This document shows positions 1-17,272 of a DNA stretch of 24,344 bases, piece after piece. Each line of letters begins with the position of its first letter. The first letter of the stretch is position 1. The stretch comes from a virus: the IMG/VR virus record IMGVR_UViG_3300010430_000434, positions 1 to 24,344 of that record. One strand, 5' to 3'. Under the pieces are notes generated by a model. It saw nothing but the letters and a program-made list of their open reading frames with translations. It had not been told where the DNA came from and ran no database searches. The position numbers and the translations under genes are program-made.

Positions 1-49
1 GGTATTGAATTGCTACCAAAAAGTAAAGCGTCACTAATGGTTTGTAGCC

Positions 50-92
50 CCTTTGTAACGCCCTACTATCTCAAAAATCAACACTACAAAGG
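50..92. repeat. 8-bp inverted repeat in the gene-free left end
   Basis: CCTTTGTA at 50-57 is exactly complementary to TACAAAGG at 85-92, with a 27-nt spacer. The spacer carries a plus-strand copy of the AAAATCAACA leader box (72-83) otherwise found before minus-strand genes. Positions 1-119 contain no ORF I can support on either strand. The repeat could be an operator or a weak RNA hairpin; no T-tract follows it on either strand. Confidence 0.4.
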
Positions 93-119
93 AATGTTAA
101 TTTTTGTTGTGCATCAAGT

Positions 120-716: not shown

Positions 717-720
717 TGTG

Positions 721-730
721 TTGATTTTTG
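721..730 (-). promoter_or_regulatory. leader box CAAAAATCAA before the 68-aa gene
   Basis: One copy of the recurring early-gene leader motif; the ATG follows 4 nt after it. Other copies facing a start codon lie at 2575-2584, 3477-3486, 4141-4149, 5755-5764, 6530-6538 and 8971-8979, and a variant at 6991-7000. It occupies the place of a Shine-Dalgarno site, so it probably acts in translation initiation. Confidence 0.6.
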
Positions 731-748
731 GTAAGTTATTGTTTTATG

Positions 749-1504
749 TCATATCCTATGGCCCTTACTTTTCATGGCACCAAACAAAGTACGGATTAGC
801 TTTTCAGATTCGGGGCTACGGGGGGTTACTTCCTTTAGTTGTCTTTGTTTGCCTCCGCTTTGTTTTTCGGCATACCATCCGTAGAGGGTTCTGCGGCGTT
901 CAGGATTGTTGAAACAATTAATAGCCTTACCAGGGTGAAGCCCCTTTAGCACCAACAATTCGTAAAGCTCTTTATCCTGTTCACTCTTAAACTCAAAATC
1001 AATTTCTTCTTTAATTAATTTAGTTTCTTCTGTTCTGTTCTCTTCTCTTCTCTTCTCTTCTTGCTTGAGCTTACCTTGAGGGTTACCTTGAGGGTTACCT
1101 TGGGAACCATCGTCAACAGAGGCTTGTAGCGATCTCATGTTTTCGGTTCTGATTTTTGCCCCCTTCTTTCCGCCTACTGATTGCTTCAATCTTTTAATGT
1201 CCCAGGGCTGCATCCGGTTAATCAGCGAATCACTAAAAAAGAAAGCATCGTCACTGACCTTGAATAAATCGAATTCGGTAATCACTGAAAGAATCTTCTC
1301 CCGGCTAATATGCCATTCATAGGCCAGGTCCTCCACCCCTGCCAATTTGTAACTATACCCTGGCTGATCCCTGAGTATTTCCACAAGCATGAAATAAATA
1401 CCATAGCCCTCTATACCCAGGATGCGACGTAGCCGTAGCACCTTTGGATCATTACGGGCGTTGGAATCATGCGGAAACCAATAACTGTCTTTGTCGTTTT
1501 TCAT
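749..1504 (-). CDS. DUF4373 / Lin1244-like replication protein
   Basis: A 251-aa protein. Residues 1-95 match the Lin1244/Lin1753 N-terminal (DUF4373) pattern: 'YWFPHDSNARNDPK' then 'LRRILGIEGYGIYFMLVEILR', a winged-helix fold related to phage replication initiators and DnaD-like proteins. A hydrophilic linker (about 125-170) holds QGNP repeats and a run of E/K/R. The C-terminal part contains 'KGLHPGKAINCFNNPERRRTLYGWYAEKQ', resembling the DnaD-type tail that contacts DNA or helicase. The probable role is replisome organiser. No leader box precedes the ATG at 1504. A terminator-like hairpin lies 27-59 nt upstream, so expression may need read-through or antitermination. The linker DNA holds two short tandem repeats, listed separately. 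Confidence 0.75.
   Translation of the reverse strand: MKNDKDSYWFPHDSNARNDPKVLRLRRILGIEGYGIYFMLVEILRDQPGYSYKLAGVEDLAYEWHISREKILSVITEFDLFKVSDDAFFFSDSLINRMQPWDIKRLKQSVGGKKGAKIRTENMRSLQASVDDGSQGNPQGNPQGKLKQEEKRREENRTEETKLIKEEIDFEFKSEQDKELYELLVLKGLHPGKAINCFNNPERRRTLYGWYAEKQSGGKQRQLKEVTPRSPESEKLIRTLFGAMKSKGHRI
1038..1060. repeat. pentanucleotide repeat (TTCTC)n inside the DUF4373-like gene
   Basis: About 4.6 copies of TTCTC on the plus strand (GAGAA on the coding strand) encode the charged linker around 'EEKRREEN'. The unit is not a multiple of three, so gain or loss of one unit would shift the reading frame. Confidence 0.85.
1071..1104. repeat. 12-bp tandem repeat encoding QGNP units
   Basis: TTACCTTGAGGG is present twice in full and a third time partly (TTACCTTGGG). 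It encodes the QGNP-QGNP-QGK stretch of the linker. The unit is a multiple of three, so changes in copy number would keep the frame. Confidence 0.85.
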
Positions 1505-1530
1505 CGTTCAAATGAATTATGTTAGTAAAC

Positions 1531-1563
1531 AAAAATCCCCGATAACTTGAGAAGCTACCGGGG
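1531..1563 (-). terminator. Rho-independent terminator between exonuclease and DUF4373-like genes
   Basis: On the minus strand, positions 1563-1537 form a 12-bp stem (CCCCGGTAGCTT with AAGTTATCGGGG) around a CTC loop, followed by ATTTTTG. Two of the pairs are G-U on the minus-strand RNA and would be A-C mismatches on the plus-strand RNA. The T-tract is also only on this side, so the element is directional. It would stop or attenuate transcription coming from the exonuclease gene. Confidence 0.75.
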
Positions 1564-1575
1564 ACACTGAAATTC

Positions 1576-1606
1576 GGAAGGGTCCACCCCAACAGTTTAC
1601 CCTTCC
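1576..1606 (-). other. RNA hairpin upstream of the terminator
   Basis: GGAAGGGT (1576-1583) pairs perfectly with ACCCTTCC (1599-1606) around a 15-nt loop. Flanking AATTC/GAATT segments could extend it across a bulge. With the terminator at 1531-1563 it fills most of the 148-nt gap between two genes, suggesting a structured attenuator or leader. There is no evidence of a separate ncRNA promoter. Confidence 0.5.
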
Positions 1607-1652
1607 AGCCATGGAATTCAACCCGTCTTACTGGGTAAATACACATAGCAAG

Positions 1653-2570
1653 TTATGAAAGATTCATAAACTTTTCCCTATCGGCCTCAAACATTTCCAT
1701 CAGGCTAAGCGGCTGAACCTCATCCACCGGGTCGCTCTTTACGCCGGTGTCAGGGGCCTGGTCCAGGGTAAGTATGGAAGGTAAGACCATGTTTTTAGGT
1801 TTCGGATCAGGGGTTTCGTAATAGTAGATCCCCATTATCCGCACAAAGTTTTCCCAAACCACTTCGTAAGGATCTGCTTTGTGGAGCTTTGCTTGCTCCT
1901 TAACGCTGCTATTGTGCATCGGGTCTACCAGTTGCCATCCTACACCCTGGTAAATCCCTTTTTCGACGTCCGCTTTAGCTGTGCGAGTCTTTGCCTTGAG
2001 ATGCAGCACTCCGACACGATCTATTTTTAAATTGGGGTTCATTTCCTCGGCAGCTACTTTGTATGCGATAAGCTGCATGAAGTAGGTCGGGTATATGGCG
2101 TTTCCGAACTTGTGATCAATCAGCCAGGTTTCTTCGCCTATCTTGCAAATCAAATCGGACGTTCCGGCGTACCGGTATTTGTGGCTGTAAACATTACCCT
2201 CGATAAGCATCGGCTCCACCTGGGTAACCTTATGGAAATCCATGTACCGGTTCAAACCTTGCCATTCTTCCAGGCTGTAGTTCTCCCCACTGTCTCCCCA
2301 TGAAACGGGTAAGCCATTAAGAATCTGCTCGATCCCGTTGTGGACTTTCGACCCGGCCTCCTTTGCCCGGTCAGCAATCAGGGTAGCCGATTGTCCGACG
2401 TCTTTGAGCCATTGGGTAAACGCTGCTCCTTTTGGGTAGAGATTAAGAATATGCGTAACACTTGGATAGTACTTATCCTTCCCGTTTTCGTCTTGCCCTG
2501 CGTGATAAAATCGTTCATCTAAAAAATTGATTTGCTGCAATTCTGCATCTACAAATGCTTTCTGTTTCAT
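1653..2570 (-). CDS. RecB/Cas4-like PD-(D/E)XK exonuclease
   Basis: A 305-aa phage nuclease of the PD-(D/E)XK superfamily. Visible motifs in order: H77 in 'AGSKVHNGIE' (motif I), D139 in 'AGTSDLICKIG', D152-H-K154 in 'TWLIDHKFG' (the D-x-K catalytic pair), and Q166-L-I-A-Y170 (the QxxxY motif of RecB-family nucleases). Such enzymes process DNA ends for recombination or packaging and need Mg2+. The C-terminal 60 residues are Pro/Asp-rich and look disordered. The ATG at 2570 is preceded by the AAAAATCAAC box (2575-2584). It sits between the HNH gene and the DUF4373-like gene and is close to an OB-fold protein and a NinB-like protein, so it probably belongs to a phage recombination set. Confidence 0.85.
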   Translation of the reverse strand: MKQKAFVDAELQQINFLDERFYHAGQDENGKDKYYPSVTHILNLYPKGAAFTQWLKDVGQSATLIADRAKEAGSKVHNGIEQILNGLPVSWGDSGENYSLEEWQGLNRYMDFHKVTQVEPMLIEGNVYSHKYRYAGTSDLICKIGEETWLIDHKFGNAIYPTYFMQLIAYKVAAEEMNPNLKIDRVGVLHLKAKTRTAKADVEKGIYQGVGWQLVDPMHNSSVKEQAKLHKADPYEVVWENFVRIMGIYYYETPDPKPKNMVLPSILTLDQAPDTGVKSDPVDEVQPLSLMEMFEADREKFMNLS

Positions 2571-2605
2571 ATCGTTGATTTTTGAGTTTTTAAAGCTATC
2601 TATTT

Positions 2606-3097
2606 TCAGCCGGTATTTAAAACGGTCCGACGAAACCCCGTATGGATATGGCTAATCATTGAACGGGAAACCCCGTACCTATCTGCGATGGCTTGCTGCG
2701 TAGCCTGGCCCTTCATTAGCTTGATCTCTAAGACCTGGCTATGCGTTAGCTTTAGGTTACACATCTCATGAATGACTGAGTGATGTTGATTTTCTACGTT
2801 GGTCATCCATTCGAGATTCGTGGCCCGGTTATTATCCTTGTCGCTGTCTTTGTGGTTTACCTCTGGCTTACCATCCGTGTTAGGGATGAAAGCATGAGCC
2901 ACTAATCGGCTAACTACATGGGTCTTTTTCCGGCCCTGGTTCTGTAGAATAACAAAGTGATATCCGTTCTGATTAATACCAGGTTTAAGTACCAGGGGAT
3001 TCGCCCAACGAAGCGAACGAATTCGCCCGAAGTTGCTTACCTGGTACAATCCTACCCATCCATTAATCGGTCGCCACTGTTCAATAATTTTTGCCAT
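2606..3097 (-). CDS. NUMOD4/HNH homing-type endonuclease with C-terminal HTH
   Basis: A 163-aa protein with three parts. Residues 6-30 are a NUMOD4 motif ('EQWRPINGWVGLYQVSNFGR'). Residues about 58-105 are an HNH_3-type nuclease: H68 in 'VSRLVAHAF', N81-H-K-D84, then 'NNRATNLEWMT' and N103. Residues about 131-155 are a helix-turn-helix ('QQAIADRYGVSRSMISHI'). This is the architecture of free-standing group I intron-type homing endonucleases such as the I-HmuI class, which cut an unoccupied allele of a nearby locus and spread by repair. It sits between the OB-fold gene and the exonuclease gene, probably as an insertion. No adjacent intron is recognisable. It lacks an exact leader box, although AAAAATAAAC lies upstream. 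Confidence 0.88.
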   Translation of the reverse strand: MAKIIEQWRPINGWVGLYQVSNFGRIRSLRWANPLVLKPGINQNGYHFVILQNQGRKKTHVVSRLVAHAFIPNTDGKPEVNHKDSDKDNNRATNLEWMTNVENQHHSVIHEMCNLKLTHSQVLEIKLMKGQATQQAIADRYGVSRSMISHIHTGFRRTVLNTG

Positions 3098-3107
3098 TAG
3101 TTAAAGT

Positions 3108-3470
3108 TTATTTTTGCAGCCATTCCAGGAACTTATCAGCCCGGCGTATGATGTCGGCCCCGTCATTGGACCCGAGTCCCATACTGTGAGCGGCTGCGTC
3201 CAGGGCTGTTTTCTTCTGGTTAAAGTCCAGATTGAAACCCCCTCCCCGGCCTCGGCCCCCGGAATTCGGTGCATTGATTATGTATTCTACTTTGCCATTG
3301 TACTCGCTCTGCTTAATTTCCACCTCGATTTCCTGGTTCATCTTTTGCGATATCTCGGCATCGAAACAAGTACAGTCCCTGCCATCCGCCAGGCGAACGG
3401 TAAAGAATGGATTTCCTTTTTTGGTAAGCCCTTTCTGAAAGGACCCCGTGATCGTTACTTTCTCTGTCAT
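3108..3470 (-). CDS. OB-fold protein, probable ssDNA-binding protein
   Basis: A 120-aa protein. Residues 4-68 have the strand pattern of an OB fold: 'VTITGSFQKGLTKKGNPFFTVRLADGRD', then 'IEVEIKQSEYNGKVEYIINA'. 'SEYNGKVEYII' resembles the nucleic-acid-binding strands of small SSB-like proteins. A Gly/Arg-rich linker (70-78) follows, then a helical tail (83-120). It lacks the acidic C-terminal tip of bacterial SSB. ssDNA binding is inferred from the fold and from its place next to exonuclease and replication genes. The ATG at 3470 follows the CAAAAATCAACAAC box. The 93-nt upstream gap can form a strong stem (3498-3562), which might allow autoregulation. Confidence 0.6.
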   Translation of the reverse strand: MTEKVTITGSFQKGLTKKGNPFFTVRLADGRDCTCFDAEISQKMNQEIEVEIKQSEYNGKVEYIINAPNSGGRGRGGGFNLDFNQKKTALDAAAHSMGLGSNDGADIIRRADKFLEWLQK

Positions 3471-3497
3471 TTGTTGTTGATTTTTGATTATGTAAAA

Positions 3498-3562
3498 GGG
3501 AGGGCGCGACCGGGACCATAACTGGCCCTGTGGAATAACTTATCCTTCCAGTGGCCCCTCCC
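3498..3562 (-). other. structured 5' UTR ahead of the OB-fold gene
   Basis: GGGAGGG (3498-3504) is exactly complementary to CCCTCCC (3556-3562), closing a 65-nt segment that can form smaller inner hairpins such as TGGAA/TTCCA. On the minus-strand RNA the stem is followed by TTTTACA, so a weak terminator is possible. The outer stem begins 2 nt past the stop of the HTH gene upstream. Confidence 0.45.
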
Positions 3563-3563
3563 C

Positions 3564-3932
3564 CTATTTCAGCTTACTGGACAGGGCCTTTAGCCCTAAC
3601 TCTACGGCCTGATGGTAGATGTCACCTTCGTTCATTGGCTTACCGGCCATAGCTACCTGGATGGCGTATTGCTTTACTCCCAGGTGGACGTTCTCTGATA
3701 CTTTTATGTTCTTGGTTCTCATCTTGATTTTCTTTTTTTTGCTTTTGAAATAATACGTTTCGTTATCGGCAGCCTGGCCGGTCTCTACAGGGTAACCCAC
3801 ATCTCTCAATTCCTTGATACGTGCCGGTAGGCTTCGCACCTGGAACAGGGTCCCGGCTTCTTTCTTAGTAAGCTGTTTACCTGAATCCAAATACGCTTTA
3901 ATGTTCTCTAATTGGTCACTCGTCTTTGTCAT
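3564..3932 (-). CDS. helix-turn-helix protein (HTH_39-like) with RHH-like tail
   Basis: A 122-aa probable DNA-binding protein. Residues 5-52 ('LENIKAYLDSGKQLTKKEAG', then 'SLPARIKELRDVGYPVET') match the pattern of the small phage HTH family PF14090: an 'LT..EA' helix, then 'ar.ReLr..Gy.i' and a wing. A basic stretch 'KSKKKKIKMRTK' (63-74) links it to a second module 'IKVSENVHLGVKQYAIQVAMAG', which looks like a ribbon-helix-helix or a second HTH. It probably regulates early transcription or replication. It sits directly upstream of the OB-fold gene, with the structured UTR between them. A leader 'TTAAAAACAATTCCA' precedes the ATG. Confidence 0.6.
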   Translation of the reverse strand: MTKTSDQLENIKAYLDSGKQLTKKEAGTLFQVRSLPARIKELRDVGYPVETGQAADNETYYFKSKKKKIKMRTKNIKVSENVHLGVKQYAIQVAMAGKPMNEGDIYHQAVELGLKALSSKLK

Positions 3933-3953
3933 TGGAATTGTTTTTAAGGGTTT

Positions 3954-4136
3954 CTAATTTGGTTCTCTATTGATCCACTCGCCGAAGGTGCCTACAAAAT
4001 ATCCTTCTGTTGCCATATAAATCGTGACAGACCATTCGGACTCGTTGCCGGTGTAGTTCTCCCCGGTACGGCGTTTAAATAGTTCCCTGGCTTCGGGCAA
4101 AGTTTTAGCATACTGCTCTTGTAATTGCGTTTCCAT
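3954..4136 (-). CDS. small hypothetical protein (60 aa)
   Basis: Starts 'METQLQEQYAKTLPEARELF' and ends 'GEWINREPN'. The frame is open for 18 more codons upstream (to 4190), but that extension would overlap the predicted promoter (4160-4190). The ATG at 4136 sits just after the AAAATCAACA box (4141-4149), so I use the shorter form. The composition is that of a soluble alpha/beta protein; no family is recognised. It is probably the first gene of a sub-operon running to the HTH regulator and OB-fold protein. Confidence 0.65.
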   Translation of the reverse strand: METQLQEQYAKTLPEARELFKRRTGENYTGNESEWSVTIYMATEGYFVGTFGEWINREPN

Positions 4137-4159
4137 AATGTTGATTTTGAGATTCGCCA

Positions 4160-4190
4160 CAAAAATAATAAATATAACCTTTGTAATCAA
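4160..4190 (-). promoter_or_regulatory. Bacteroidota-type promoter
   Basis: On the minus strand, TTG (4190-4188) is followed after 20 nt by TATTTTTG (4167-4160). This matches the known primary sigma pattern of Bacteroidota (-33 TTTG/TTG, -7 TAnnTTTG). Transcription would begin near 4150, just upstream of the leader box and ATG of the 60-aa gene. The surrounding A/T bias fits a promoter. Confidence 0.55.
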
Positions 4191-4198
4191 GATTATAA

Positions 4199-4564
4199 TT
4201 ATGCTTGATAGCCCTTATCCTTCATGATGCCCTGTAACAAATCGGCTACATCCACCGGTACGTCGGCGATGTCCATCTTTCCCAGGTTGTAAATCGGGCA
4301 ATCATCTTTTTCCTCACAAGTGGAGCAATCCCTTTCGGCTTCGGCGTGATCCTGTTTAGTGTCCAGGTATTTAATGGCTAACTCAAACGGCTCACGTAGC
4401 CGGGGTTCGGCGTCCATAGCCCTAACGATCATCATGGTTAGCTCCTTTAGGTTTCCGCCCATAGCGGCGGCGGAATTGTCGTCACCCCTGGCAAGGATAA
4501 TAAAGGGTTCACCGTTCTCTAATGCTGATTGAATGATTCTGAGTACTTCTTCTTTCGGGTTCAT
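4199..4564 (-). CDS. hypothetical protein with Cys cluster
   Basis: A 121-aa acidic protein, family not recognised. The N-terminal half is helical ('VLRIIQSALENGEPFIILARG', 'LKELTMMIVRAMD'). A C-x2-C-x5-C cluster ('CSTCEEKDDC', about residues 80-89) may bind metal. The last third is acidic and helical ('VPVDVADLLQGIMKDKGYQA'). The start at 4564 follows TTAAAACCAAGAT, a divergent form of the A-rich leader. It lies 61 nt downstream of the DUF932 gene and just upstream of the promoter at 4160-4190. Confidence 0.7.
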   Translation of the reverse strand: MNPKEEVLRIIQSALENGEPFIILARGDDNSAAAMGGNLKELTMMIVRAMDAEPRLREPFELAIKYLDTKQDHAEAERDCSTCEEKDDCPIYNLGKMDIADVPVDVADLLQGIMKDKGYQA

Positions 4565-4625
4565 ATCTTGGTTTTAAGGGGTAAAAGCGATCCATTTGGA
4601 CCACTTCTACCCGGTAGTTGGACAA

Positions 4626-5750
4626 TCACATTACCTGGTTCACATAGTTCGCTGTTACCTTTTCAAGCTCTCTTTTGCGTTCCGGCTTCGAATCCCTCGC
4701 CATAGCGGTTAAGCCCTGGGCGAATTTCCAAAGGGTGTTTCCACCTTCCAGACCGTTCAAAGGATCGTTCTCCATAAGGATTTTGGTTAGTAACTCGGTG
4801 TCCTTCTTTTTGAAGGTGGACCGGGGTAGCTCCTTGACAGCTTTATCGAAGTCCAGGTCCCGGCGGCTTGCCTCACGAATCCACTCGGCTTGATGCTTCA
4901 AGTTGTCCGTAGTGAACACTGAACCCATAATGTCGGTCACCAGGGCCGACTTCGCTTTGGTGTCCAGTATCATTGTCTCTTCCGATACCTGAATGTTCTG
5001 TGGAATCTTGCTGCCGATGTGTACCTCACTAAGCATTGAATCACTGACCATCCCATTTAAACAAACGACGTTCATCATAAAGGTACGTAATTCCAGGCGA
5101 CCGTCTCCGAAGTTGCTGTTTCTCAGCCTGGAACCGAATGCTACCGGTACATCGCCGTTCTTTGGTGTCTCGACCCACTCAATTTCGGGGCGAACAATTT
5201 CCAGGTATTCTTTCGTGTCACCGGCATGACTGTCAACCAGGACGGCGTCGTGCTGACGGGCTGCCAATAGGTAGCTTAAGAATATCTGCATGGAGTTCAA
5301 CCGGCGGTACTGGTCGCTAAGCACTCCCCTCACCTGGCCGTCCACTGTACGAATCAGGAGGCGGTCTTTGTTGTAGTTCTCGGCATGGATGTTCAGGGCG
5401 TTAACTGCTACGTCCCTTTGCCAATCTGTCCCGAAATATTCAGGCTTCAAGAACATCGGCTGTATGCCTAACTTGTCACCTAACTGCCATACGGCATGAG
5501 GGTGAACCGTGAACGGGTCGCCGTTGACCCCTTCCAGGTTAATGTTCTGCCCGGTGTTAACGAACTTCATTGCATCGGGGCTAATGAGATAATCATTCAG
5601 CATAGCACCATCATGCTCGATTTTCTGCATAGCTGTTTGGATATCCTGGCTCTTGCCCTCGATCCTGGCCCGTAGGCGTTCTTCCATAATTTGTTGACGT
5701 TCACTGGTTGCGATACCTGTCGCTGCTTGTACTAAAGTTCCTTCGTTCAT
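4626..5750 (-). CDS. DUF932 phage/plasmid-like protein
   Basis: A 374-aa protein with DUF932 hallmarks: 'QVRGVLSDQYRRLNSMQIF' (about 139-157) corresponds to the family's 'vRa.lSdrY..l.n...', and 'GDGRLELRTFMMNVVCLNGM' (216-234) to the conserved strand ending in 'C.NGm'. Family members occur in phages and plasmids next to recombination genes. Their biochemical role is not established; some carry the TIGR03299 'phage/plasmid-like' label. The N-terminal 60 residues are a helical extension. The ATG at 5750 is immediately preceded by CAAAAATCAACAAA, which sets the start. The length is typical for the family. Confidence 0.8.
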   Translation of the reverse strand: MNEGTLVQAATGIATSERQQIMEERLRARIEGKSQDIQTAMQKIEHDGAMLNDYLISPDAMKFVNTGQNINLEGVNGDPFTVHPHAVWQLGDKLGIQPMFLKPEYFGTDWQRDVAVNALNIHAENYNKDRLLIRTVDGQVRGVLSDQYRRLNSMQIFLSYLLAARQHDAVLVDSHAGDTKEYLEIVRPEIEWVETPKNGDVPVAFGSRLRNSNFGDGRLELRTFMMNVVCLNGMVSDSMLSEVHIGSKIPQNIQVSEETMILDTKAKSALVTDIMGSVFTTDNLKHQAEWIREASRRDLDFDKAVKELPRSTFKKKDTELLTKILMENDPLNGLEGGNTLWKFAQGLTAMARDSKPERKRELEKVTANYVNQVM

Positions 5751-5767
5751 TTTGTTGATTTTTGGAT

Positions 5768-6037
5768 TTAACTTTTATCTATAATGATGTTTAACGCTGC
5801 TTGCTTTAATGTCTTGGTTCTACCGGCTACAGAGGCCAGTACACCATCCATACGTAAGAGGGTTAGATTCTCGGCACATCGGTCGCAAAGGGTCCGCCCT
5901 TCGATGATTATCGGGTCGTCCTGTTCGCCTTCGTTTAATTGCTTGTAGCAGCAATCGCATTCAAATGGTCGGGGGTCCGGTTCCTGGAACCAGGGTGCCG
6001 ACGGATCATTGTCGGCTCCCCAGGGTACATTACTCAT
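5768..6037 (-). CDS. small Cys-rich protein, probable zinc ribbon
   Basis: An 89-aa protein starting 'MSNVPWGADNDPSAPWF'. It carries two CxxC-type pairs, 'CDCCYKQL' and 'LCDRCAEN', spaced as in a four-Cys zinc knuckle or LIM/RING-like ribbon. I use the ATG at 6037, not an in-frame ATG 60 nt upstream, because it overlaps the upstream stop as TAATG, a coupling typical of phage operons. DNA or RNA binding is possible but not shown. The C-terminus is 'KTLKQAALNIIIDKS'. The DUF932 gene starts 17 nt downstream. Confidence 0.7.
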   Translation of the reverse strand: MSNVPWGADNDPSAPWFQEPDPRPFECDCCYKQLNEGEQDDPIIIEGRTLCDRCAENLTLLRMDGVLASVAGRTKTLKQAALNIIIDKS

Positions 6038-6528
6038 TAGCACTTTACTTTGAAGCGTTTCACCTCTTGCATTTCGGTTTCCTCTACCACTTCGCAACCG
6101 TCAAGATTCTCGATGGTTCTAAACTCGATGCCATAGTTGCACGAATACTTGATGCGACGGTTTAGTTCGTGGCGGAAGGTGCCGGAAGTAGAATTCAAAA
6201 CCTTGTCGAAATTCCACTTGTCCATATTGGCACAGAAGTCAGTAATAAGAAGCGTATCGTGTTCGGTGAAATGCTCGCCGAACTTTGGCTTGATAACGGC
6301 GTAAACATAATTGGACCATCCCTCGAATTCCACTGAGCAACGATTCAAAACTTTCTTCGGTAAGCTGCTTTGAAGGATTCGGGCCAGGGCTTCGGTCCGA
6401 CGCTTACGGGTTTCCAGTTCTTTAATTTGGTCAAGGAGTGAATTGTGATCCCTGTTCATGCGTTCGCTTGCTTGAGCTACAAGATTAACCTGGTTAGTCT
6501 TGGCTACTTTTGTTGTTGTTGTTTCCAT
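6037..6528 (-). CDS. hypothetical early protein (163 aa)
   Basis: No family recognised. Residues 20-55 are strongly helical and charged ('NRDHNSLLDQIKELETRKRR'), likely a coiled coil. The rest is mixed alpha/beta with aromatic residues ('GWSNYVYAVIKPKFGEHF') and ends in a basic tail 'QEVKRFKVKC'. The ATG at 6528 directly abuts the AAAATCAAC box (6530-6538). The stop overlaps the next start as TAATG, so it is coupled to the Cys-rich protein. Confidence 0.75.
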   Translation of the reverse strand: METTTTKVAKTNQVNLVAQASERMNRDHNSLLDQIKELETRKRRTEALARILQSSLPKKVLNRCSVEFEGWSNYVYAVIKPKFGEHFTEHDTLLITDFCANMDKWNFDKVLNSTSGTFRHELNRRIKYSCNYGIEFRTIENLDGCEVVEETEMQEVKRFKVKC

Positions 6529-6550
6529 GTTGATTTTGAGATTTGAGATA

Positions 6551-6739
6551 TTAATAAATTGCTACTACTTCGAATTCTACGTCACCATGTGCTTGACGAA
6601 TCATTTCTTCCAGACCGAAATAATTTACGGTATGGTAATGTGATGTGAACTTGATCATTTCGCCTTTCTGTTCGGCTACTATTTCAACTTCGTATAATCT
6701 GAAGTTGATCTCCCTGGTACTCTTGGTTGTCATGCTCAT
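6551..6739 (-). CDS. small hypothetical protein (62 aa)
   Basis: Starts 'MSMTTKSTREINFRLYEVEI'; a second Met at position 3 could be the true start (6733). The body looks like a small beta-rich domain ('FRLYEVEIVAEQKGEMIKF') followed by a helix 'GLEEMIRQAHGD'. No family recognised. It lies 3 nt downstream of the 81-aa gene, with an A-rich leader AAATAAATAAACC before the ATG. Confidence 0.65.
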   Translation of the reverse strand: MSMTTKSTREINFRLYEVEIVAEQKGEMIKFTSHYHTVNYFGLEEMIRQAHGDVEFEVVAIY

Positions 6740-6742
6740 GGT

Positions 6743-6988
6743 TTATTTATTTAATTGGGTTCTTAATTGTTTTGCACAAGCTAAATCCATTTGGTAACTC
6801 ATGTGTACCAGGTGGATCGGTTCACCGTGACGATACTTGCTACCCTTTAAAATAGATGCTCTCAGGTCTGCAATTTCGGCGGTCAGAATGTTGATCTCTT
6901 TTGTGTTAGCTGCTTTCTGTGCTTTGATTGTTTTCTTGGCCTGTTCTGCTGCTACTGCTTTTTTGGTTTCTTCGCTGTAAGTTTCCAT
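6743..6988 (-). CDS. small helical hypothetical protein (81 aa)
   Basis: Ala/Lys-rich N-terminal helix ('ETKKAVAAEQAKKTIKAQKA') followed by a likely coiled coil 'INILTAEIADLRASIL' and a C-terminal helix 'MDLACAKQLRTQLNK'. No family recognised. It is the first protein-coding gene after the predicted early promoter and the tRNA-like element. The ATG at 6988 follows CCAAAAATCTGAAC, a variant of the leader box. Confidence 0.7.
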   Translation of the reverse strand: METYSEETKKAVAAEQAKKTIKAQKAANTKEINILTAEIADLRASILKGSKYRHGEPIHLVHMSYQMDLACAKQLRTQLNK

Positions 6989-7014
6989 GTTCAGATTTTT
7001 GGTTTATAAAGAAG

Positions 7015-7106
7015 CGACGAGCAGGGGAGTCGAACCCCTGGGTAAGCATCAGCATACCATCGTAAAAAAATTACGGTGCCTATAGCCTACTTAAACCCTT
7101 CTCGCC
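7015..7106 (-). tRNA. tRNA-like gene, class II shape, anticodon uncertain
   Basis: A 92-nt element on the minus strand. The acceptor strands GGCGAGA and GCTCGTC pair at 6 of 7 positions (one G-U, one A-G mismatch), with discriminator G. The T-arm is textbook: AGGGG-TTCGACT-CCCCT. A long variable arm GGTATGC..GCTTACC points to class II. The D-loop has AA, GG and A at expected places, but the D-stem is weak. The anticodon arm CCGTA-ATTTTTT-TACGA gives UUU by position, with U at position 37 and a C-A closing mismatch, both unusual; UUU (Lys) does not normally go with a class II shape. No CCA is encoded. It lies 26 nt upstream of the first early coding gene, so it would be cut out of the early transcript. 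It may be degenerate, or a tRNA-derived attachment site. Confidence 0.55.
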
Positions 7107-7361
7107 ATTCATCGCCCTTCGTTTTTCGTTCCGCAGCCCACAATAAAAAAATGTGAACGGGTTTCCCGCCGGTGACCTGGCGACCTTACACTACCTCGAT
7201 GAAAAAATGTGAATACTGAAAACGGCCCTCAGCCTACCTACGGCCCTACTCCCTTCAAATCGGTTTCGTGGCTAACTACGGGGACAGGCAAAAAATGCGG
7301 CCCCCTTGCTTCGGGTGTCATTTTCAGAATGAGAAAGAACGCTGTCGCCGTAACGACACAA
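7107..7361 (-). other. early leader region with repeats and T-tracts, no gene
   Basis: This stretch between the early promoter and the tRNA-like element has no supported ORF. It holds AAAAAATGTGAA twice (7146-7157 and 7202-7213, offset 56), ACGGCCCT twice (7222-7229 and 7240-7247) and three A-tracts that read CATTTTTT on the transcript (7290-7297, 7202-7209, 7145-7153). GC-rich potential hairpins lie before each, the clearest being CGGG-TTT-CCCG at 7158-7168. It could be a multi-step attenuator; this is inference. Confidence 0.4.
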
Positions 7362-7392
7362 CAAATATAATAAATATAATCTTTATTACAAA
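7362..7392 (-). promoter_or_regulatory. early promoter, Bacteroidota type
   Basis: On the minus strand, TTTG (7392-7389) is followed after 19 nt by TATATTTG (7369-7362). Both elements and the spacing match the Bacteroidota primary sigma consensus TTTG-N19-21-TAnnTTTG. The segment 7360-7415 is very AT-rich against GC-rich flanks. It lies between the virion-operon terminator and the early genes, exactly where an early promoter is expected; the start should fall near 7355. Confidence 0.75.
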
Positions 7393-7579
7393 TATTACCT
7401 TTATTAGGAATAGTTACGCCCAAAGTTGGGACGGCCCTGGTCCTCTGCGTAATCCCTACCACCACTCAAATTTCTATTATCGGGATCAAAAAGGTACAAT
7501 CACCTTGCTAATTCACTAATGCGGCATTTGGAGCTATAATCGGCCTTAAACGCTTTGTCGATTTTTATTGAAAATAAAT

Positions 7580-7612
7580 AAAAAAACCCCCAAACCTGAA
7601 CAGATTTGAGGG
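7580..7612 (-). terminator. Rho-independent terminator of the virion operon
   Basis: On the minus strand, positions 7612-7587 form an 11-12-bp stem (CCCTCAAATCTG with CAGGTTTGGGGG) with a tiny loop, followed directly by seven T residues (7586-7580). Two pairs are G-U only on the minus-strand RNA, so it is directional. It lies 33 nt past the last gene of the long structural operon and upstream of the early promoter. Confidence 0.9.
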
Positions 7613-7645
7613 CCTTGAACGAAGAAAAATAGCAGCCAGGTATCG

Positions 7646-7849
7646 TTACTGCTGAACCATATTTTGCAAGATACGACTTTTTAAGCTCCCTAAAATCTGC
7701 TTCAACCGGCAAGGTGTACTACATGAATTTAGATGAATCGGTCGCTCATTTGGTCGTAGCCTGGAATTAAATTCTTCTACTAATTGCTGTTTTAAGTTTA
7801 GGTCCCAGGTCCTGTTCTGCAAGAATTCGTTCAATTCCTGATCTGTCAT
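7646..7849 (-). CDS. small hypothetical protein ending the virion operon
   Basis: A 67-aa protein starting 'MTDQELNEFLQNRTWDLNL'. It is mainly helical, with two Cys in 'LNSCSTPCRLKQIL'. Family not recognised. The start overlaps the stop of the upstream gene by 4 nt (ATGA), good evidence that it is translated. The strong terminator follows its stop. Its position after the tail-fibre cluster would suit a late accessory or lysis function, but no membrane segment is visible. Confidence 0.65.
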   Translation of the reverse strand: MTDQELNEFLQNRTWDLNLKQQLVEEFNSRLRPNERPIHLNSCSTPCRLKQILGSLKSRILQNMVQQ

Positions 7850-8193
7850 TTTTTGCCCTTTGCATCATAATACCTGTTCAGGTGGACAAGCATATTTTTG
7901 AAAATGTACGGCGGAACTCGATGCTTGCTCCATCCTGTTCCATGCGTTTTGTTATATGTTTCCACCACTTCGGCGTATTCTTTCGTGCCGATTGTGAATT
8001 CAAACGCTGTCTTTTTCAGGAATAAAGGCTTTCCGCCCCGGTCAGTAGCAGGGCCAGGTCCTTTGACCTCGGCTACAGGGGAGTCCTTTTTTGGGACCTT
8101 CGCCGCTTTGGTGGATGGTTGTCCCCCTTCTGGGCTTGCCTTTGTTTTTGGGGCTGTTTTAGGCTTCTTAGTCTGTGCTTTCTTTTGTGCCAT
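7846..8193 (-). CDS. Lys/Ala/Pro-tailed hypothetical protein (115 aa)
   Basis: Residues 1-50 are low-complexity K/A/P/T ('AQKKAQTKKPKTAPKTKASP' and on), like a histone-H1-type tail or disordered DNA-binding arm. Residues 55-115 form a compact aromatic domain ('FLKKTAFEFTIGTKEYAEVV', 'VPPYIFKNMLVHLNRYYDAK'). No family recognised. It could be a nucleic-acid-binding late protein or a disordered virion component. It is followed by an ATGA overlap with the 67-aa gene and preceded by the 120-aa gene with a 6-nt gap. Confidence 0.65.
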   Translation of the reverse strand: MAQKKAQTKKPKTAPKTKASPEGGQPSTKAAKVPKKDSPVAEVKGPGPATDRGGKPLFLKKTAFEFTIGTKEYAEVVETYNKTHGTGWSKHRVPPYIFKNMLVHLNRYYDAKGKK

Positions 8194-8199
8194 GATTGA

Positions 8200-8562
8200 T
8201 TACTTTTTGGTTAGTATCTTTAATTCCTTCCATCCGGCTACATCCACCGGCGTAACTGGCAATCCGTTTAGGTCTGCGATGATCAGCTTTGGAAAGGTCA
8301 GCTTGACATCCACCTGGGACAGCTTCTTTAATTCCGTTTCGATGGGTTGCGGATCCTTCACGGTGTATTGCCCTGGTTGATCCTCTACCGGGGTTCCGTG
8401 CTTCTCTAAAAGCTCGTTCCGCTTATCATCCCATTTCTTAAGATGGTTGTTTGCCTGGTCAATGCTCTCGGCCATGTCCCAGGCTGTTTGAGCGTCTTTC
8501 ATTGCCATCTTTTGCAACGACTCTAACGATTGACGATGTGTGATTAATAATTCAAGTTTCAT
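8200..8562 (-). CDS. hypothetical late protein (120 aa), DUF1617-like layout
   Basis: N-terminal long helix ('LESLQKMAMKDAQTAWDMAE', 'WDDKRNELLEKHGTP'), then 'ETELKKLSQVDVKLTFPKL' and 'IIADLNGLPVTPVDVAGWKEL'. The order (coiled helix, 'LL.k.g', then 'e...l...ev.l..pki...dl....i.p.d...L') resembles the small DUF1617-type proteins found near tail genes in siphophages. That is a resemblance by eye, not a confirmed family. It lies 11 nt after the winged-helix gene in the post-fibre cluster. Confidence 0.6.
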   Translation of the reverse strand: MKLELLITHRQSLESLQKMAMKDAQTAWDMAESIDQANNHLKKWDDKRNELLEKHGTPVEDQPGQYTVKDPQPIETELKKLSQVDVKLTFPKLIIADLNGLPVTPVDVAGWKELKILTKK

Positions 8563-8573
8563 ATTTCGGGGGT

Positions 8574-8966
8574 TTAATTAAATGTCATTTCAGCCTGTTT
8601 AGCTGCGAACTTATTATCCTTTTGTCGCTTCGTCGCTTTCCAGACGGCTCTTTGTGCCTCGATGCGCTGATCCAGGCTTTCCAGGTACGCTACGGCCTCG
8701 GCCTCGGTTTCGGCGATGTAGTAACCCTTGCTCGTTGCAATCAAACAATTCACCAGGCCGTTTATTCGAATATGGTTTATGATCTTCCGTACCCTGGGAT
8801 CGCCCACCTTGTAACCGGCGTTTCTCAGCCCTTTCCGCATCTGCGTATTAGTGACTGCATGACGCTCCCCGAATTTCTCACTTAAGCCCTTAACGAATAG
8901 GGGCAAAAGGACTTCCCGTTCATGGTCAGTCAAGGGAGCTGTTTCTCTTTCAAATCCTCTTAGCAT
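8574..8966 (-). CDS. winged-helix DNA-binding protein (late cluster)
   Basis: A 130-aa protein. Residues 15-85 look like a winged helix: 'VTNTQMRKGLRNAGYKVGDP' then 'RVRKIINHIRINGLVNCLIA' and the wing 'SKGYYIAE'. This pattern (T..ql...L...Gy...d.rvRk.In.iR..glv) recurs in small phage HTH proteins. A charged helical tail follows ('LDQRIEAQRAVWKATKRQKD'). It could regulate late genes or act in DNA packaging; the sequence does not decide. The ATG at 8966 is preceded by TTAAAATCAACATT (box at 8971-8979), the only virion-operon gene with that early-type box, which overlaps the tail-fibre stop codon. Confidence 0.65.
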   Translation of the reverse strand: MLRGFERETAPLTDHEREVLLPLFVKGLSEKFGERHAVTNTQMRKGLRNAGYKVGDPRVRKIINHIRINGLVNCLIATSKGYYIAETEAEAVAYLESLDQRIEAQRAVWKATKRQKDNKFAAKQAEMTFN

Positions 8967-8976
8967 AATGTTGATT

Positions 8977-11826
8977 TTAAGGTTCGACTATTTTTAACCT
9001 GGCATCCAGTTCTTTTAGGGCTACAATGATCCAGGGGATCAGGGTCGTATCGGAATACATTGGGGTTTCTTTGCCGTTCTCATCCTTTGGGCGTTTCACG
9101 GCGTCGGGGAATATCTGTTCCAGGTCCTCGATAACAAAACCGATTAGCTCAGTCGGGTCGCCTCCCCTGCTTGCAATCTCGGCCCGTTCTTCATCTGTTC
9201 GCCCGATGTAGTTGTATCGCTTCGGTTGAGCCCTGCGGTCCCTGAACTTTGCCATAGCATCATCGGAGATATCCCTTATGTTAGTCTTGTAGTCCCGGCT
9301 TGAAACGGCGTTGAATAACCGGAAACTGGTAGTGTCGGCCAGAAGTGTTCCGACGGTCGTCCCGTTGCCATCAGCGCACCATAGATAGTTATTGTCGCTA
9401 CTGGTTAAGGTGTCAAGTCCGCACTGAATATAAATACCCTGGGCGTTGACGTTATTCCCATCCGACCAAATCCTCAGCCCATACCAGATAGCAGCCGTAT
9501 AAGAATCATAAATGTAAAGCCGGTTAGTAGCATGAGGTATGACCCCTAACCCGATAGCCCCGGTTTCGGCTATTTGAAAATCGGCTGTCGTAGAGTACGA
9601 CGTACTCGAATGAATCTGAAATCGACTTACTGAAGCATCGTGACCCATGATAAACCGAGTCGAGGTATTTTCACGGAAATAGATTGAAGCATCAGAACCA
9701 GTATTCGCTTGTAAATAAATATAAGCTGTGGACGTTGCTGCATCCACATACATTGAAGCCGAGGTCGATCCGTAATATCCATAATGAGTAGTTCCAACGT
9801 AGAAATAAGGGGCCGTCCCTAATCCCTGTGATCCGACTTGCATCTTGATTTGAGTTGTACTATAATCCCATCCGATCATCCCGACCGTCGTAGATGATTC
9901 GATGAAGATATGTCGGATATCCAGGGTCGTCGATGGGCTACGCCATAGGAACGTAGAATTGTAATCGGCAGAAAAAACAGTTTCGTAATCAGTTGACCCC
10001 GATCCCCGAAGCAAGACATTAAACCGGGAGGAATTATTTGTGGCCGACAAAGCTGAAACAGCCAAGACGCAATAGCTGGCATACGATGCTCCCCCTTTAC
10101 AGGCAAGCGATAGAGCTGTATAATCACTCAATCCACCAGTAACAGCTCCCCCGGCTCGGTGCATTCCGAGGACCCGGTTCGGAAGGGCTGTCGGAAAATT
10201 GTTCCATGCAACAAAGGGTCTGTCATGCTGTCCGACCATGATCCAATCGTCCGTATCACCCTGGACATGGATTCGCTGATTCGCTACAGGGTCCGTATTG
10301 ACCCCGATGGTTCCCGATGCACCTATTGTCATCGCATTGACGAACCCGGTGTTGTAAGTCCAGAATCTTATCCCCTGTTCGTTGCTGTCGGCAAACCGAT
10401 AACCGGAGATTTCAGAGTAGCGTCCGACGGTGTCCGATTCAAACCTTAGGTAGCCCGTAACGATGTTCGCTGTCGAGGCATTTCGGTGGATTAGAATACC
10501 CTGGGTAGCGGTATCGAAAATAGTTAGTCTATCGTTTGGTGTTGAATCCCCGATCCCTACGTTTCCATTGGTGTCGATGGTGAAATAATCATCGGTTCCA
10601 AACGCTCCGAATCCCTTTGAGATTTTAAAGTAATCGGCTGTTCCATCATTACCGATTGACCACTTCGTCGAGGCGTTATTCTGGAAGCCTACCTGGGTAT
10701 CGCCCCCGGCAGATTGATTAACTACGATCCTACCATAACCTGATACAGAACCGGAATTCCAGGTGCCTACATCCGTGAGGGTGCTTGTCACTTCCATGAC
10801 TCCGACCTGGTCATAGTTTCCGACAAGGTAGAGCGTTGCTCCGGTAAACCTGAAATTTGTCGAATAATCGAAATCCGTTCCCCCGGAATTCACGTAAGGG
10901 ATTTCATCATTCAATCCGAATGAAATCGGTGGAGGGATTGCGCCTATGGCAGTGAAAACGGCTCCCGACGTTGGTATGTGATCATTGTCGTTGGTGAGCG
11001 TTGTTTCGATGGTGTCTACGCTTGTCCCTGACGATAAAGCAATCTCAGTAACATCTAAAGTCGTGCCGTCAAAAGTCATGTTCGACGATCCTCTTACCTG
11101 GCCTGTTGCCAGGGTAGAATAAAGCACATAAGCTCCCCCGGCGATGGATGATATTTTAAGCTGTCCGGCAACTAAAAAACCTGTGGTATATGTCAGCGAA
11201 GATGTGTAAATGAAGTCTGTTCCCAGGGCGTTCATTATTGGAATCTGACCATCGGTTCCCAGGGCCGGTTTAATGGTACTGGAAGCCCGTTTGGATAATA
11301 GCCCGGTAGCGTCGTCGATGGCTACCAGGTGATCCTCGGTGTCGTCTGATGGGAGTCCAGATAAAGTAACTCCCGGATGTATTTCAAATTGACCCCCTCG
11401 ATGCGCTGTTACGATTTGAACCGTTCCGCCTGATAATTCCCTGATAGTAAAATTGTCATTACCAGATACATCTATGTTCACTCCAAAATCATAGCCATAC
11501 GTGCCTGAAGGACCTAACAGATATTGAGTCAAAGCACGACTTGAAACGGTGTCGTCCGTATGAATTCTTTGCAGGATCGTTCCGGTTCCATAGATGTATA
11601 ATTCAACTCCGGCATTAGGGGCGATCCCAATAGATACGACCCCATCAAAACGAGTGTCCGCACTAAAGGTCTTTAACCCTCCAATCGTTTCGGCTGATAT
11701 CCTATCTACTAACAGTCCCATGTCGTACTTATGCGCTGCTATCTGTGCGTTGGAATCCATAGCCAGGAACTTCGATGTCCGAACGGTCGAAGTCGTTGCT
11801 AATTCCCATATTCTTTTATCTGCCAT
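8977..11826 (-). CDS. tail fibre / receptor-binding protein with S74 chaperone domain
   Basis: A 949-aa protein, the largest here. The N-terminus ('MADKRIWELATTSTVRTSKF') likely docks on the virion. The middle is a long S/T/G/N-rich beta-structured region with repeated 'GNVGIGDSTPNDRL'-like segments, as in trimeric fibres with alternating shaft and knob modules. The C-terminal 107 residues (843-949, starting 'SRDYKTNIRDISDDAM') match the Peptidase_S74 intramolecular chaperone: a cleavage Ser at or next to 843, then 'ELIGFVIEDLEQIFPDAV' and a terminal 'LIPWIIVALKELDARLK' coiled coil. In this family the chaperone trimerises the fibre and then cuts itself off. It probably sets host range. It is preceded by the second tail-tube-like gene with a 5-nt gap. 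Confidence 0.92.
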   Translation of the reverse strand: MADKRIWELATTSTVRTSKFLAMDSNAQIAAHKYDMGLLVDRISAETIGGLKTFSADTRFDGVVSIGIAPNAGVELYIYGTGTILQRIHTDDTVSSRALTQYLLGPSGTYGYDFGVNIDVSGNDNFTIRELSGGTVQIVTAHRGGQFEIHPGVTLSGLPSDDTEDHLVAIDDATGLLSKRASSTIKPALGTDGQIPIMNALGTDFIYTSSLTYTTGFLVAGQLKISSIAGGAYVLYSTLATGQVRGSSNMTFDGTTLDVTEIALSSGTSVDTIETTLTNDNDHIPTSGAVFTAIGAIPPPISFGLNDEIPYVNSGGTDFDYSTNFRFTGATLYLVGNYDQVGVMEVTSTLTDVGTWNSGSVSGYGRIVVNQSAGGDTQVGFQNNASTKWSIGNDGTADYFKISKGFGAFGTDDYFTIDTNGNVGIGDSTPNDRLTIFDTATQGILIHRNASTANIVTGYLRFESDTVGRYSEISGYRFADSNEQGIRFWTYNTGFVNAMTIGASGTIGVNTDPVANQRIHVQGDTDDWIMVGQHDRPFVAWNNFPTALPNRVLGMHRAGGAVTGGLSDYTALSLACKGGASYASYCVLAVSALSATNNSSRFNVLLRGSGSTDYETVFSADYNSTFLWRSPSTTLDIRHIFIESSTTVGMIGWDYSTTQIKMQVGSQGLGTAPYFYVGTTHYGYYGSTSASMYVDAATSTAYIYLQANTGSDASIYFRENTSTRFIMGHDASVSRFQIHSSTSYSTTADFQIAETGAIGLGVIPHATNRLYIYDSYTAAIWYGLRIWSDGNNVNAQGIYIQCGLDTLTSSDNNYLWCADGNGTTVGTLLADTTSFRLFNAVSSRDYKTNIRDISDDAMAKFRDRRAQPKRYNYIGRTDEERAEIASRGGDPTELIGFVIEDLEQIFPDAVKRPKDENGKETPMYSDTTLIPWIIVALKELDARLKIVEP

Positions 11827-15672: not shown

Positions 15673-16224
15673 CTAATAGACTGGGTTTACAGTTACATTT
15701 GCGAAGTTGTCAAAGGGTGTGGTAGTGTATGCTGCCATAAAAAGAGCGTAGTAATCCTCTTCAGCGAGGAACACCTGGTCGAGGCCCTTCTTATCTCCGG
15801 CGGCTGTACCGGAATTCTCTACACCACCTGTAGAAGTACATCCGTTTGTATCACCAAATATTCTGATTGCTCCCTGGAAATCGAGGGTCCACATGGTCCA
15901 TCGTCCCAGCTTCAAAGCATCGAGATCAACCAGGTCCGCCGGTTTGATATTAAACAGCGTCATAGTGATGGTTTTTGCCAAGAAAGACGTACCGTTTTCA
16001 CGGGCCGTATTAATTGTTTCATCGAACATCCCTACGTTATCTGCCATTTCAAACCGATAGATCGTAATCGGGTCAGCTCCCAGGTCGGTATATTCTCCGC
16101 CGACAATCAGCTTTCCGGTCAGTGCTATGAAGTCATTGTATTTGGCATAAAAAACGGTCTTTATCCCTGCTCGGCCTACAAGACAATCGTCAAGTAATCG
16201 GCCATTTGTTAAGTCGCAAGCCAT
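15673..16224 (-). CDS. tail-tube-like virion protein, copy A (183 aa)
   Basis: Starts 'MACDLTNGRLLDDCLVGRAG' and contains 'ITIYRFEMAD', 'KTITMTLFNIKPADLVDLDA', 'LGRWTMWTLDFQGAIRIFGD' and a final 'TPFDNFANVTVNP'. The strand pattern with 'W.LD..G.IR.FG' resembles tail-tube proteins, inferred by shape only. It is clearly paralogous to 11832-12458. It follows the major capsid gene after an 85-nt gap, a common place for an abundant structural protein. Confidence 0.6.
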   Translation of the reverse strand: MACDLTNGRLLDDCLVGRAGIKTVFYAKYNDFIALTGKLIVGGEYTDLGADPITIYRFEMADNVGMFDETINTARENGTSFLAKTITMTLFNIKPADLVDLDALKLGRWTMWTLDFQGAIRIFGDTNGCTSTGGVENSGTAAGDKKGLDQVFLAEEDYYALFMAAYTTTPFDNFANVTVNPVY

Positions 16225-16286
16225 ATCTTAAAGGTTTTTAGTGATGGGATTAAAAGGGAAGCCCGGAACTATTGGTAGAAACCGAG

Positions 16287-16313
16287 CTAACCCTTTCCCC
16301 CCGTTCGGGTTAG
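16287..16313 (-). other. hairpin over the capsid stop codon
   Basis: CTAACCC and GGGTTAG (16287-16293 and 16307-16313) pair perfectly around a 13-nt loop. The capsid TAA (16310-16312) lies inside one arm. There is no T-tract, so it is more likely an mRNA end-protecting or processing hairpin than a terminator. Confidence 0.45.
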
Positions 16314-17227
16314 GTTGACAAGTGAAGAACAATTTCTTCGGGCCAGCCTATCTGAACGCCCATCACGGCATAGCTCCTGAAACGAACATTGTCCGACAGG
16401 TCTATTTCCGCCATATCTTTAAGAATGACCTCGTTTAAATTCGAAACGCTTTCGGTTCCGAAATAGAGATTTGATTTGTGAGATAGTACGAACTGGTTTG
16501 CGGCCATCCCAGGGGCTACAACTAATGGGATGCCTATGTAGTTCATCGGCTTATCACCGGCCTGATACTGATCCATGTAACCTTGACTCGCCAGAGCTTG
16601 CTTGTAAGCGGCTGCGACGTTCGGGGCTACCCAGTACATTAGGTCAGGGGCCTTAAACCAGGGCTGACCGGCTGCGAGGGTGTATGCACCTCCCAGGTCA
16701 GCTACGACAGTGGTTGCATCTACGGCGGAAGGTGTTAACTGATTTCCACCTGGTACATCGGCTGTCATGATCTTGATGAATCCGTCCATCAACTGCCAGG
16801 GTGCGACCAGGGTATCACCTTGCCACATAGTGTATTCTACCTCGTCGCCTACGTGTCCCAGTATTTCAGTAATCATTGCATCGACTACGTCCTGGGCGAG
16901 CTTCCGGTTTGCACCGGTTCCCATCCTGACCGAACTCCAATCTACGTGTTTGAAATCGGCTTTACACATTTGCAGATTCACTTCAAAGGGGGTAGCAGTT
17001 ATAATCCGCTCGTCGATGGTAACTGTTCCTACAGGTGTAAAGTCACAAGTCGGGACAGCGATCATTCCGGCAGCGGCTAACCGACGGATGTGCCAGGCTT
17101 TGTTAATGTCGTCCTTGATGGTGACATTACCATTACCTACCGTAAATGCTCCGAAGAACATTTTATTTATTAATTCTGTTGCGGCTTCGCCTACATACGA
17201 AGTCGTCAAGCTAAGTGTTGTTGCCAT
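16310..17227 (-). CDS. major capsid protein, HK97-fold candidate
   Basis: A 305-aa protein. Starts 'MATTLSLTTSYVGEAATELI', then 'AWHIRRLAAAGMIAVPTCDF' and 'DERIITATPFEVNLQMCKAD' (a likely E-loop/P-domain region), a helix 'NRKLAQDVVDAMITEILGHV', a central 'WQLMDGFIKIM' and a C-terminal 'NLYFGTESVSNLNEVILKDM' followed by 'VRFRSYAVMGVQIGWPEEIV'. Size, this C-terminal pattern and its place right after a protease-scaffold gene support a major capsid protein; the HK97 fold is inferred. Both its own stop and the upstream gene's stop lie in hairpins. An A/T-rich leader (TTAAATCAATTATT) precedes the start. Confidence 0.82.
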   Translation of the reverse strand: MATTLSLTTSYVGEAATELINKMFFGAFTVGNGNVTIKDDINKAWHIRRLAAAGMIAVPTCDFTPVGTVTIDERIITATPFEVNLQMCKADFKHVDWSSVRMGTGANRKLAQDVVDAMITEILGHVGDEVEYTMWQGDTLVAPWQLMDGFIKIMTADVPGGNQLTPSAVDATTVVADLGGAYTLAAGQPWFKAPDLMYWVAPNVAAAYKQALASQGYMDQYQAGDKPMNYIGIPLVVAPGMAANQFVLSHKSNLYFGTESVSNLNEVILKDMAEIDLSDNVRFRSYAVMGVQIGWPEEIVLHLST

Positions 17228-17256
17228 AATAATTGATTTAAGAGATAATAGATTTT

Positions 17257-17272
17257 GGACAACTATTTGTCC
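17257..17272 (-). other. hairpin over the protease-scaffold stop codon, upstream of the capsid gene
   Basis: GGACAA and TTGTCC pair perfectly around a 4-nt loop; the TAG stop of the protease-scaffold gene lies in it. The element ends 29 nt before the capsid ATG. It may protect or separate the capsid mRNA segment. Confidence 0.5.

Follow-up and report, generated by a model that had tools for sequence, protein, structure and literature searches.

In the virus record IMGVR_UViG_3300010430_000434, a repeated box of 9–13 letters stands immediately before many early-gene starts. The overall explanation that we favour, at a probability of roughly 0.6, is that this box is a phage-private start-associated element acting in the mRNA at translation initiation, the best candidate for its partner being an antisense RNA. 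The stretch analysed, here called the window, is this complete 24,344-base IMG/VR record, the ends of which are unresolved. Bacteroidota-type bacteria barely use the usual ribosome-docking signal, and the host, judged from the phage's relatives alone, would be such a bacterium. Action of the box at the mRNA level, at start sites, is probable. The antisense partner is put forward more tentatively, as a candidate small RNA whose expression and effect we infer. The first-pass annotation of this DNA had described the box and offered, among other readings, a site for a translational regulator; that reading now gains a concrete candidate in the antisense RNA.

The genes of the window lie on the minus strand: the virion module spans 24204 to 8977, and after it come the early genes (8966 to 120). 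The latter include genes for a DUF932-like protein (phrog_1362), an exonuclease (phrog_298), a Lin1244-type replication protein and NinB. The boxes that had been noted at seven starts were all found again on this strand, with the core AAAATCAAC ending 3, 3, 5, 3, 3, 0 and 3 nt before the ATG at 716, 2570, 3470, 4136, 5750, 6528 and 8966, respectively. A further variant, reported before 6988, does exist (AAAAATCTGAAC) but is an inexact copy with TG inserted. No box precedes the window starts above 8979. A reversed copy on the plus strand (74–83) was absent from the first-pass annotation.

The start-linked box is confirmed by its enrichment. Allowing up to one mismatch, the window holds 13 occurrences of AAAATCAACA, where 2.8 are expected and none of 100 shuffles gave more than 9; the exact word lies in 5 of 34 leaders (shuffle maximum 2). 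The 8-mer AAAATCAA is present in 7/34 leaders, compared with a maximum of 4 in 100 dinucleotide shuffles. On the sense strand, AAATCAAC occurs seven times in leaders, which make up 2% of the sequence, and twice elsewhere; its p of 5e-11 is descriptive, as the words were picked on the same data. A second contig, L182 (IMG/VR 3300010392_000071), is 98% identical to the left end of the window over 262 nt and extends 8.8 kb further; L007, a sister contig from the same sample, shares 7.3 kb with the window at 99.85%. Since L182 lies outside the window, its five boxed starts among 18 (AATCAAC gaps of 3, 0, 4, 4 and 3 nt) provide an out-of-sample confirmation: AATCAAC is found in five leaders and at four other places, with leaders making up 3.2% of the sequence (p = 4e-6). 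One of these boxes, at L182:6420, precedes a gene of unclear role.

Window and L182 together hold 12 copies at 0–5 nt from starts in one orientation, plus the one reversed copy. Their early region is closely packed; of its 21 starts that have 10 nt or more to the previous stop, 12 carry AATCAAC, and of its 15 coupled or overlapping starts none does, counts in which two gap-zero starts fall in both bins and start 6988, with its 657-nt gap, falls outside them. The earlier proposal, that the element is tied to start codons and goes beyond mere richness in A, is supported. The features are collected in Table 1.

Table 1. Boxes, reversed copy and associated elements in the window.
Feature	Sequence	Position	Strand	Context
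Box	AAAATCAACA	719..728	-	2 nt before ATG 716 (68-aa basic protein)
Box, one-letter variant	AAAATCAACG	2573..2582	-	Before ATG 2570 (phage exonuclease, phrog_298)
Box	AAAATCAACA	3475..3484	-	Core 5 nt before ATG 3470 (120-aa protein)
Box	AAAATCAACA	4139..4148	-	Before ATG 4136; sole boxed leader with a TAnnTTTG match upstream
Box	AAAATCAACA	5753..5762	-	Before ATG 5750 (phrog_1362, DUF932-like)
Box	AAAATCAAC	6528..6537	-	Abuts ATG 6528 (gap 0)
Degenerate variant	AAAAATCTGAAC	6989..7000	-	Before ATG 6988; predicted duplex with anti-box just -9.9 kcal/mol
Box	AAAATCAACA	8969..8978	-	Before ATG 8966; overlaps stop codon of upstream tail gene (10-nt gap)
Anti-box	TGTTGATTTTTGAGAT	68..83	-	Equals the reversed box copy at 74-83 (plus); 5' part of candidate small RNA, predicted to be unpaired
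Intrinsic terminator		18..67	-	Hairpin of about -20 kcal/mol, then TTTTT, directly after anti-box
Promoter-like element	TTCCTTTG	87..94	-	Differs by one letter from the Bacteroidota -7 element TAnnTTTG; lies a few nt upstream of anti-box; TTG at 117-115
Capsid gene leader	TCTATTATCTCTTAAATCAATTATT	17228..17252	-	Before start 17227; no exact box; strongest predicted window-leader duplex with 25-nt anti-box, -22.1 kcal/mol

The box is neither a Shine-Dalgarno (SD) sequence nor a motif of the host phylum. The 16S 3' tails of Flavobacterium, Bacteroides and Nonlabens match it over at most 3 nt, so the pairing with the host 16S rRNA that had been suggested as a check is absent. The box joined to its start codon, AAAATCAACANNATG, occurs no more than seven times per genome in 395 Bacteroidota genomes and six times in ~33 kb of this phage. 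Searching by capsid protein brought up 22 related viral records (70–100% identical, some 30–46%), and none of them has a repeated box, many being fragments without the early region; among them is G015, which keeps orthologues of several early genes. Neither close relatives, sought through the DUF932-like and exonuclease proteins, nor prophage relatives in genome contigs were found. A collection scan for CAAAAATCAACA followed by ATG returned 120 stretches, two of which encode relatives of window proteins, and was read as background. The first-pass annotation had named a lack of conservation in related phages as what would speak against the element, and relatives with 70–83% identical capsid proteins do lack the box. 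This absence does not refute it: in several unrelated Bacteroidota phages the corresponding place is taken by a different private box, so that a lack of conservation belongs to this kind of element.

These private boxes emerged when the same leader test was run on a panel of phages, in which the method recovered the known start-associated sequence (SAS) of TM4. Croceibacter phage P2559S has its own start box, AACCGAGAGC, with ACCGAGAGC at starts in 6/7 copies. Nonlabens phage P12024S has TTTCCGTTAATA, with CGTTAATA at five starts and a fixed gap of 4, and Phocaeicola phage BM127P2 has AAACCAATTAA, with AACCAATTAA at starts in 7/8 copies. The start box of Flavobacterium phage 11b, AAACCAAATA, is weaker. 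Most other phages tested are without a private start box; both box and anti-box are missing from Flavobacterium phage 1/32, TCUEAP2 and AS73P1. Two candidates were set aside: a leader similarity in G007/G008 (CCTTTTAAAT), weak and not clearly above shuffles, and ACACTATCA of Cellulophaga phage phi38:1, an intergenic repeat whose distance to starts varies from 0 to 21 nt. The minus strand of phi38:1 holds 11 or more copies of the latter within positions 1–30000, in the replication half, often right after a stop codon and at variable distance from the following start; in the structural half it is rare. In Alistipes phage AS73P1 a strong SD-like word, AAAGGAGG, stands in five leaders, though the phylum of its host reportedly does without SD pairing.

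The DUF932-like gene bears on whether a box belongs to a gene or to a phage. The proteins of the window and P2559S are 35% identical over nearly their full length (1e-83), yet the window gene (5750) bears AAAATCAAC and its P2559S orthologue ACCGAGAG. Each orthologue carries the box of its own phage: which box is present depends on the phage rather than on the gene. This bears directly on the idea, also raised in the first-pass annotation, that the boxes are a footprint of cassette-like exchange at short shared homology. Boxes do lie between genes and the early module does vary among relatives, as such exchange would have it; but similarity ends at the box and boxes do not travel with genes, which makes this reading highly improbable.

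The letters of the box point to the ribosome. In Flavobacterium johnsoniae, A-3, A-6, A-12 and A-13 are positive determinants of initiation (PMC6847099). A box at gap 3 puts A at -12 and -6, and most copies also have A at -3; among the boxed starts, A is found at -6 in 92% (28% of unboxed starts), at -12 in 75%, at -3 in 67% and at -13 in 42%. No copy uses a core gap of 1 or 2, either of which would put C or T at -6. This placement, together with the unused gaps, supports action at the ribosome. It also fits a rival account, in which the box is an ordinary SD-less Bacteroidota initiation region: A-rich leaders are preferred by the ribosome (bS1, A-3/A-6/A-12), and one good leader has been copied or converged upon within this phage, with no dedicated trans factor. 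Unboxed leaders with gaps are likewise A-rich at -12/-11, and boxed leaders are just marginally less structured (p = 0.07). We nevertheless consider this account rather unlikely. T and C are fixed as strictly as the A's, the boxes of other phages (CCGAGAGC, CGTTAATA) depart from the A pattern, and the box differs per phage whereas host ribosomes hardly differ. The A preference of the ribosome leaves both the fixed TC..C and each phage's own word unaccounted for, and the reversed copy before a terminator stays unexplained.

That reversed copy is the basis for the proposed partner. The window's single reversed copy scores 18.1, where 0.005 are expected per strand, and the adjacent terminator is among the strongest. 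The transcribed strand reads 5'-UGUUGAUUUUUGAGAU; this anti-box of 16 nt lies in the space that separates NinB from the following gene and is largely unpaired in the predicted fold. The element TTCCTTTG suggests a promoter before it. Predicted duplexes of the anti-box with 11/12 boxed leaders range from -14.9 to -21.5 kcal/mol, and those with unboxed leaders mostly from -4 to -11 kcal/mol, with the exceptions of 17227 (-22.1), L182:4204 (-16.1) and 24204 (-11.5). The capsid leader at 17227 was considered as an extra target and dropped: it ranks third among window sites, which is unsurprising and not significant alone.

The same arrangement recurs in P2559S, with that phage's own box. Its only reversed box is intergenic, with TATATTTG upstream, the anti-box CGCTCTCGGT and a terminator of -15 kcal/mol downstream, before the boxed gene gp40; this anti-box has no copy in 100 shuffles. 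The same order is seen more weakly in 11b, with TATATTTG, CTATTTGGTTTTAGC, a terminator of -13.6 kcal/mol and then a boxed gene. In all three phages the anti-box lies ~100–150 nt upstream of the start of the boxed gene. When 281 terminators from 23 sequences were screened, the window (p = 0.0075) and P2559S (p = 0.0025) came out among the better per-terminator hits, the other matches at similar p being low-complexity T/A words. Minus-strand anti-boxes in BM127P2 and Citrobacter phage Mordin were discarded as trivial, being merely the opposite strand of boxed leaders, and no Rfam family scores above its gathering score for the candidate small RNA.

Several observations weigh against a start box with an antisense partner. 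The plus-strand copy precedes an open reading frame of nine codons; this is too short for the copy to be a usable start, but it could be a decayed reverse gene start. The promoter element is one letter off the consensus, the L182_4592 leader pairs poorly with the anti-box (-9.4 kcal/mol), and the AATCAAC core is invariant across the 12 copies by selection. The window's terminator result is modest, with five terminators tested. When the AT-rich stretch around it is shuffled for comparison, the anti-box of 11b does not reach significance, and this AT-richness is also why 11b fails the terminator screen. P12024S, BM127P2 and phi38:1, with start boxes or box-like repeats, are without an anti-box, Mordin is without a reversed copy of its start repeat, and the one reversed SAS of mycobacteriophage Anaya has no adjacent terminator.

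Two further partners or levels of action were weighed. A phage RNA-binding protein, similar to T4 RegA, might repress or activate the early genes as a group by binding the box. A private box that follows the phage does suggest a phage-encoded partner, and for SAS Pope et al. brought up an RNA or a protein encoded by either host or phage; no candidate protein was identified here, however, and in two to three phages the anti-box is the simpler partner, so that we regard a protein as unlikely. Less likely still, the box could be an operator or promoter element in the DNA that lies near starts by chance. A reversed copy would be natural for such a site, the P12024S boxes head separate units, and four of six P2559S boxes lie 10–18 bp after a repeated promoter-like block. 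The spacing is fixed relative to the ATG, however, boxes lie in 10-nt intercistronic gaps and overlap a stop codon, and two P2559S boxes lack the block. In the window and L182, TAnnTTTG promoters are not linked to the box, occurring upstream of 1/12 boxed starts. The P2559S block itself, AGTTTTGACAATTAAAGAAAAAGTTTAATTTAGC and variants (1460–1506, 28205–28250, 30630–30665 and 37350–37395), precedes several boxed genes.

For a start box with an antisense RNA partner, the following mechanism can be envisaged. In an SD-blind host, the 30S subunit may land on the box, which offers it A at -12, -6 and -3; the fixed TC..C letters would let a phage factor recognize the whole gene set. The best candidate for this factor is the phage's own small RNA, made up of the 16-nt anti-box and the intrinsic terminator and encoded after NinB, just before another boxed gene. 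The paired anti-box would span the leader from about -16 as far as the AUG, which could shut off these early genes together. Such an RNA would address the gene set in trans, and each phage's own box/anti-box pair would limit regulation to its own genes. As a possibility, we suggest that some Bacteroidota phages use a private two-part code of this kind, a start box plus a small antisense RNA that exposes the exact anti-box in its 5' part.

The early region has other features of interest. No sense gene is convincing across approximately 650 nt (7000–7640), and near 7583 this stretch has a hairpin that resembles a terminator and runs into T's. A NUMOD4/HNH homing-type endonuclease (2606–3097), the start of which is unboxed, sits between an unassigned 120-aa gene and the exonuclease. 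A small protein (3564–3932) has an HTH_39 match and a weak ribbon-helix-helix (Omega repressor-like) match and is a candidate early-gene regulator.

The nearest described elements are the cluster K SAS and the Mordin repeat, both of which contain an SD. The SAS/ESAS of cluster K mycobacteriophages is likewise a short, asymmetric, one-orientation repeat a few bp before starts (within ~3–9 bp, compared with 0–5 nt here), and K1 phages with SAS also have a single reversed copy away from starts (PMC3203893). It is present in 11–19 copies, mainly in the non-structural half, is absent from the host and has no known function (PMC3203893). Unlike the window box AAAATCAAC, the SAS consensus GGGATAGGAGCCC has an SD core, AGGAG, that pairs with 16S rRNA, and SAS is conserved across subclusters (PMC3203893), whereas the window box is absent from relatives with 70–83% capsid identity. 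The 26-bp SAS-like repeat of Mordin also stands directly before the starts of many small genes, but it contains an SD and is longer than the window box (PMC4611695); we counted 15 forward and 0 reverse copies. Elsewhere in Mordin, 1.5 kb without annotated genes (15880–17377) holds fragments complementary to the start repeat (CAGATTCTCCA at ~16845). The A-rich, SD-less initiation regions of F. johnsoniae favour A at -3, -6 and -12/-13, and the box puts A at most of these positions, but they are genome-wide position preferences with no repeated box of fixed T and C (PMC6847099).

Start-associated sequences, which have awaited an assigned role since 2011, are met here in a form without an SD part; in hosts without SD pairing, such a box must do something other than pair as an SD. 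Small RNAs derived from operon ends (3' untranslated regions), such as OppZ and CarZ of Vibrio cholerae, repress their own operon. Like the candidate described here, OppZ and CarZ lie at a transcription end, carry an intrinsic terminator and pair at starts of the same operon; unlike them, the window's candidate RNA would act on a dozen starts by way of a single box common to them, and in a phage. Confirmation would mean that a phage governs many genes with one small RNA, by means of a single start box that is repeated before them.

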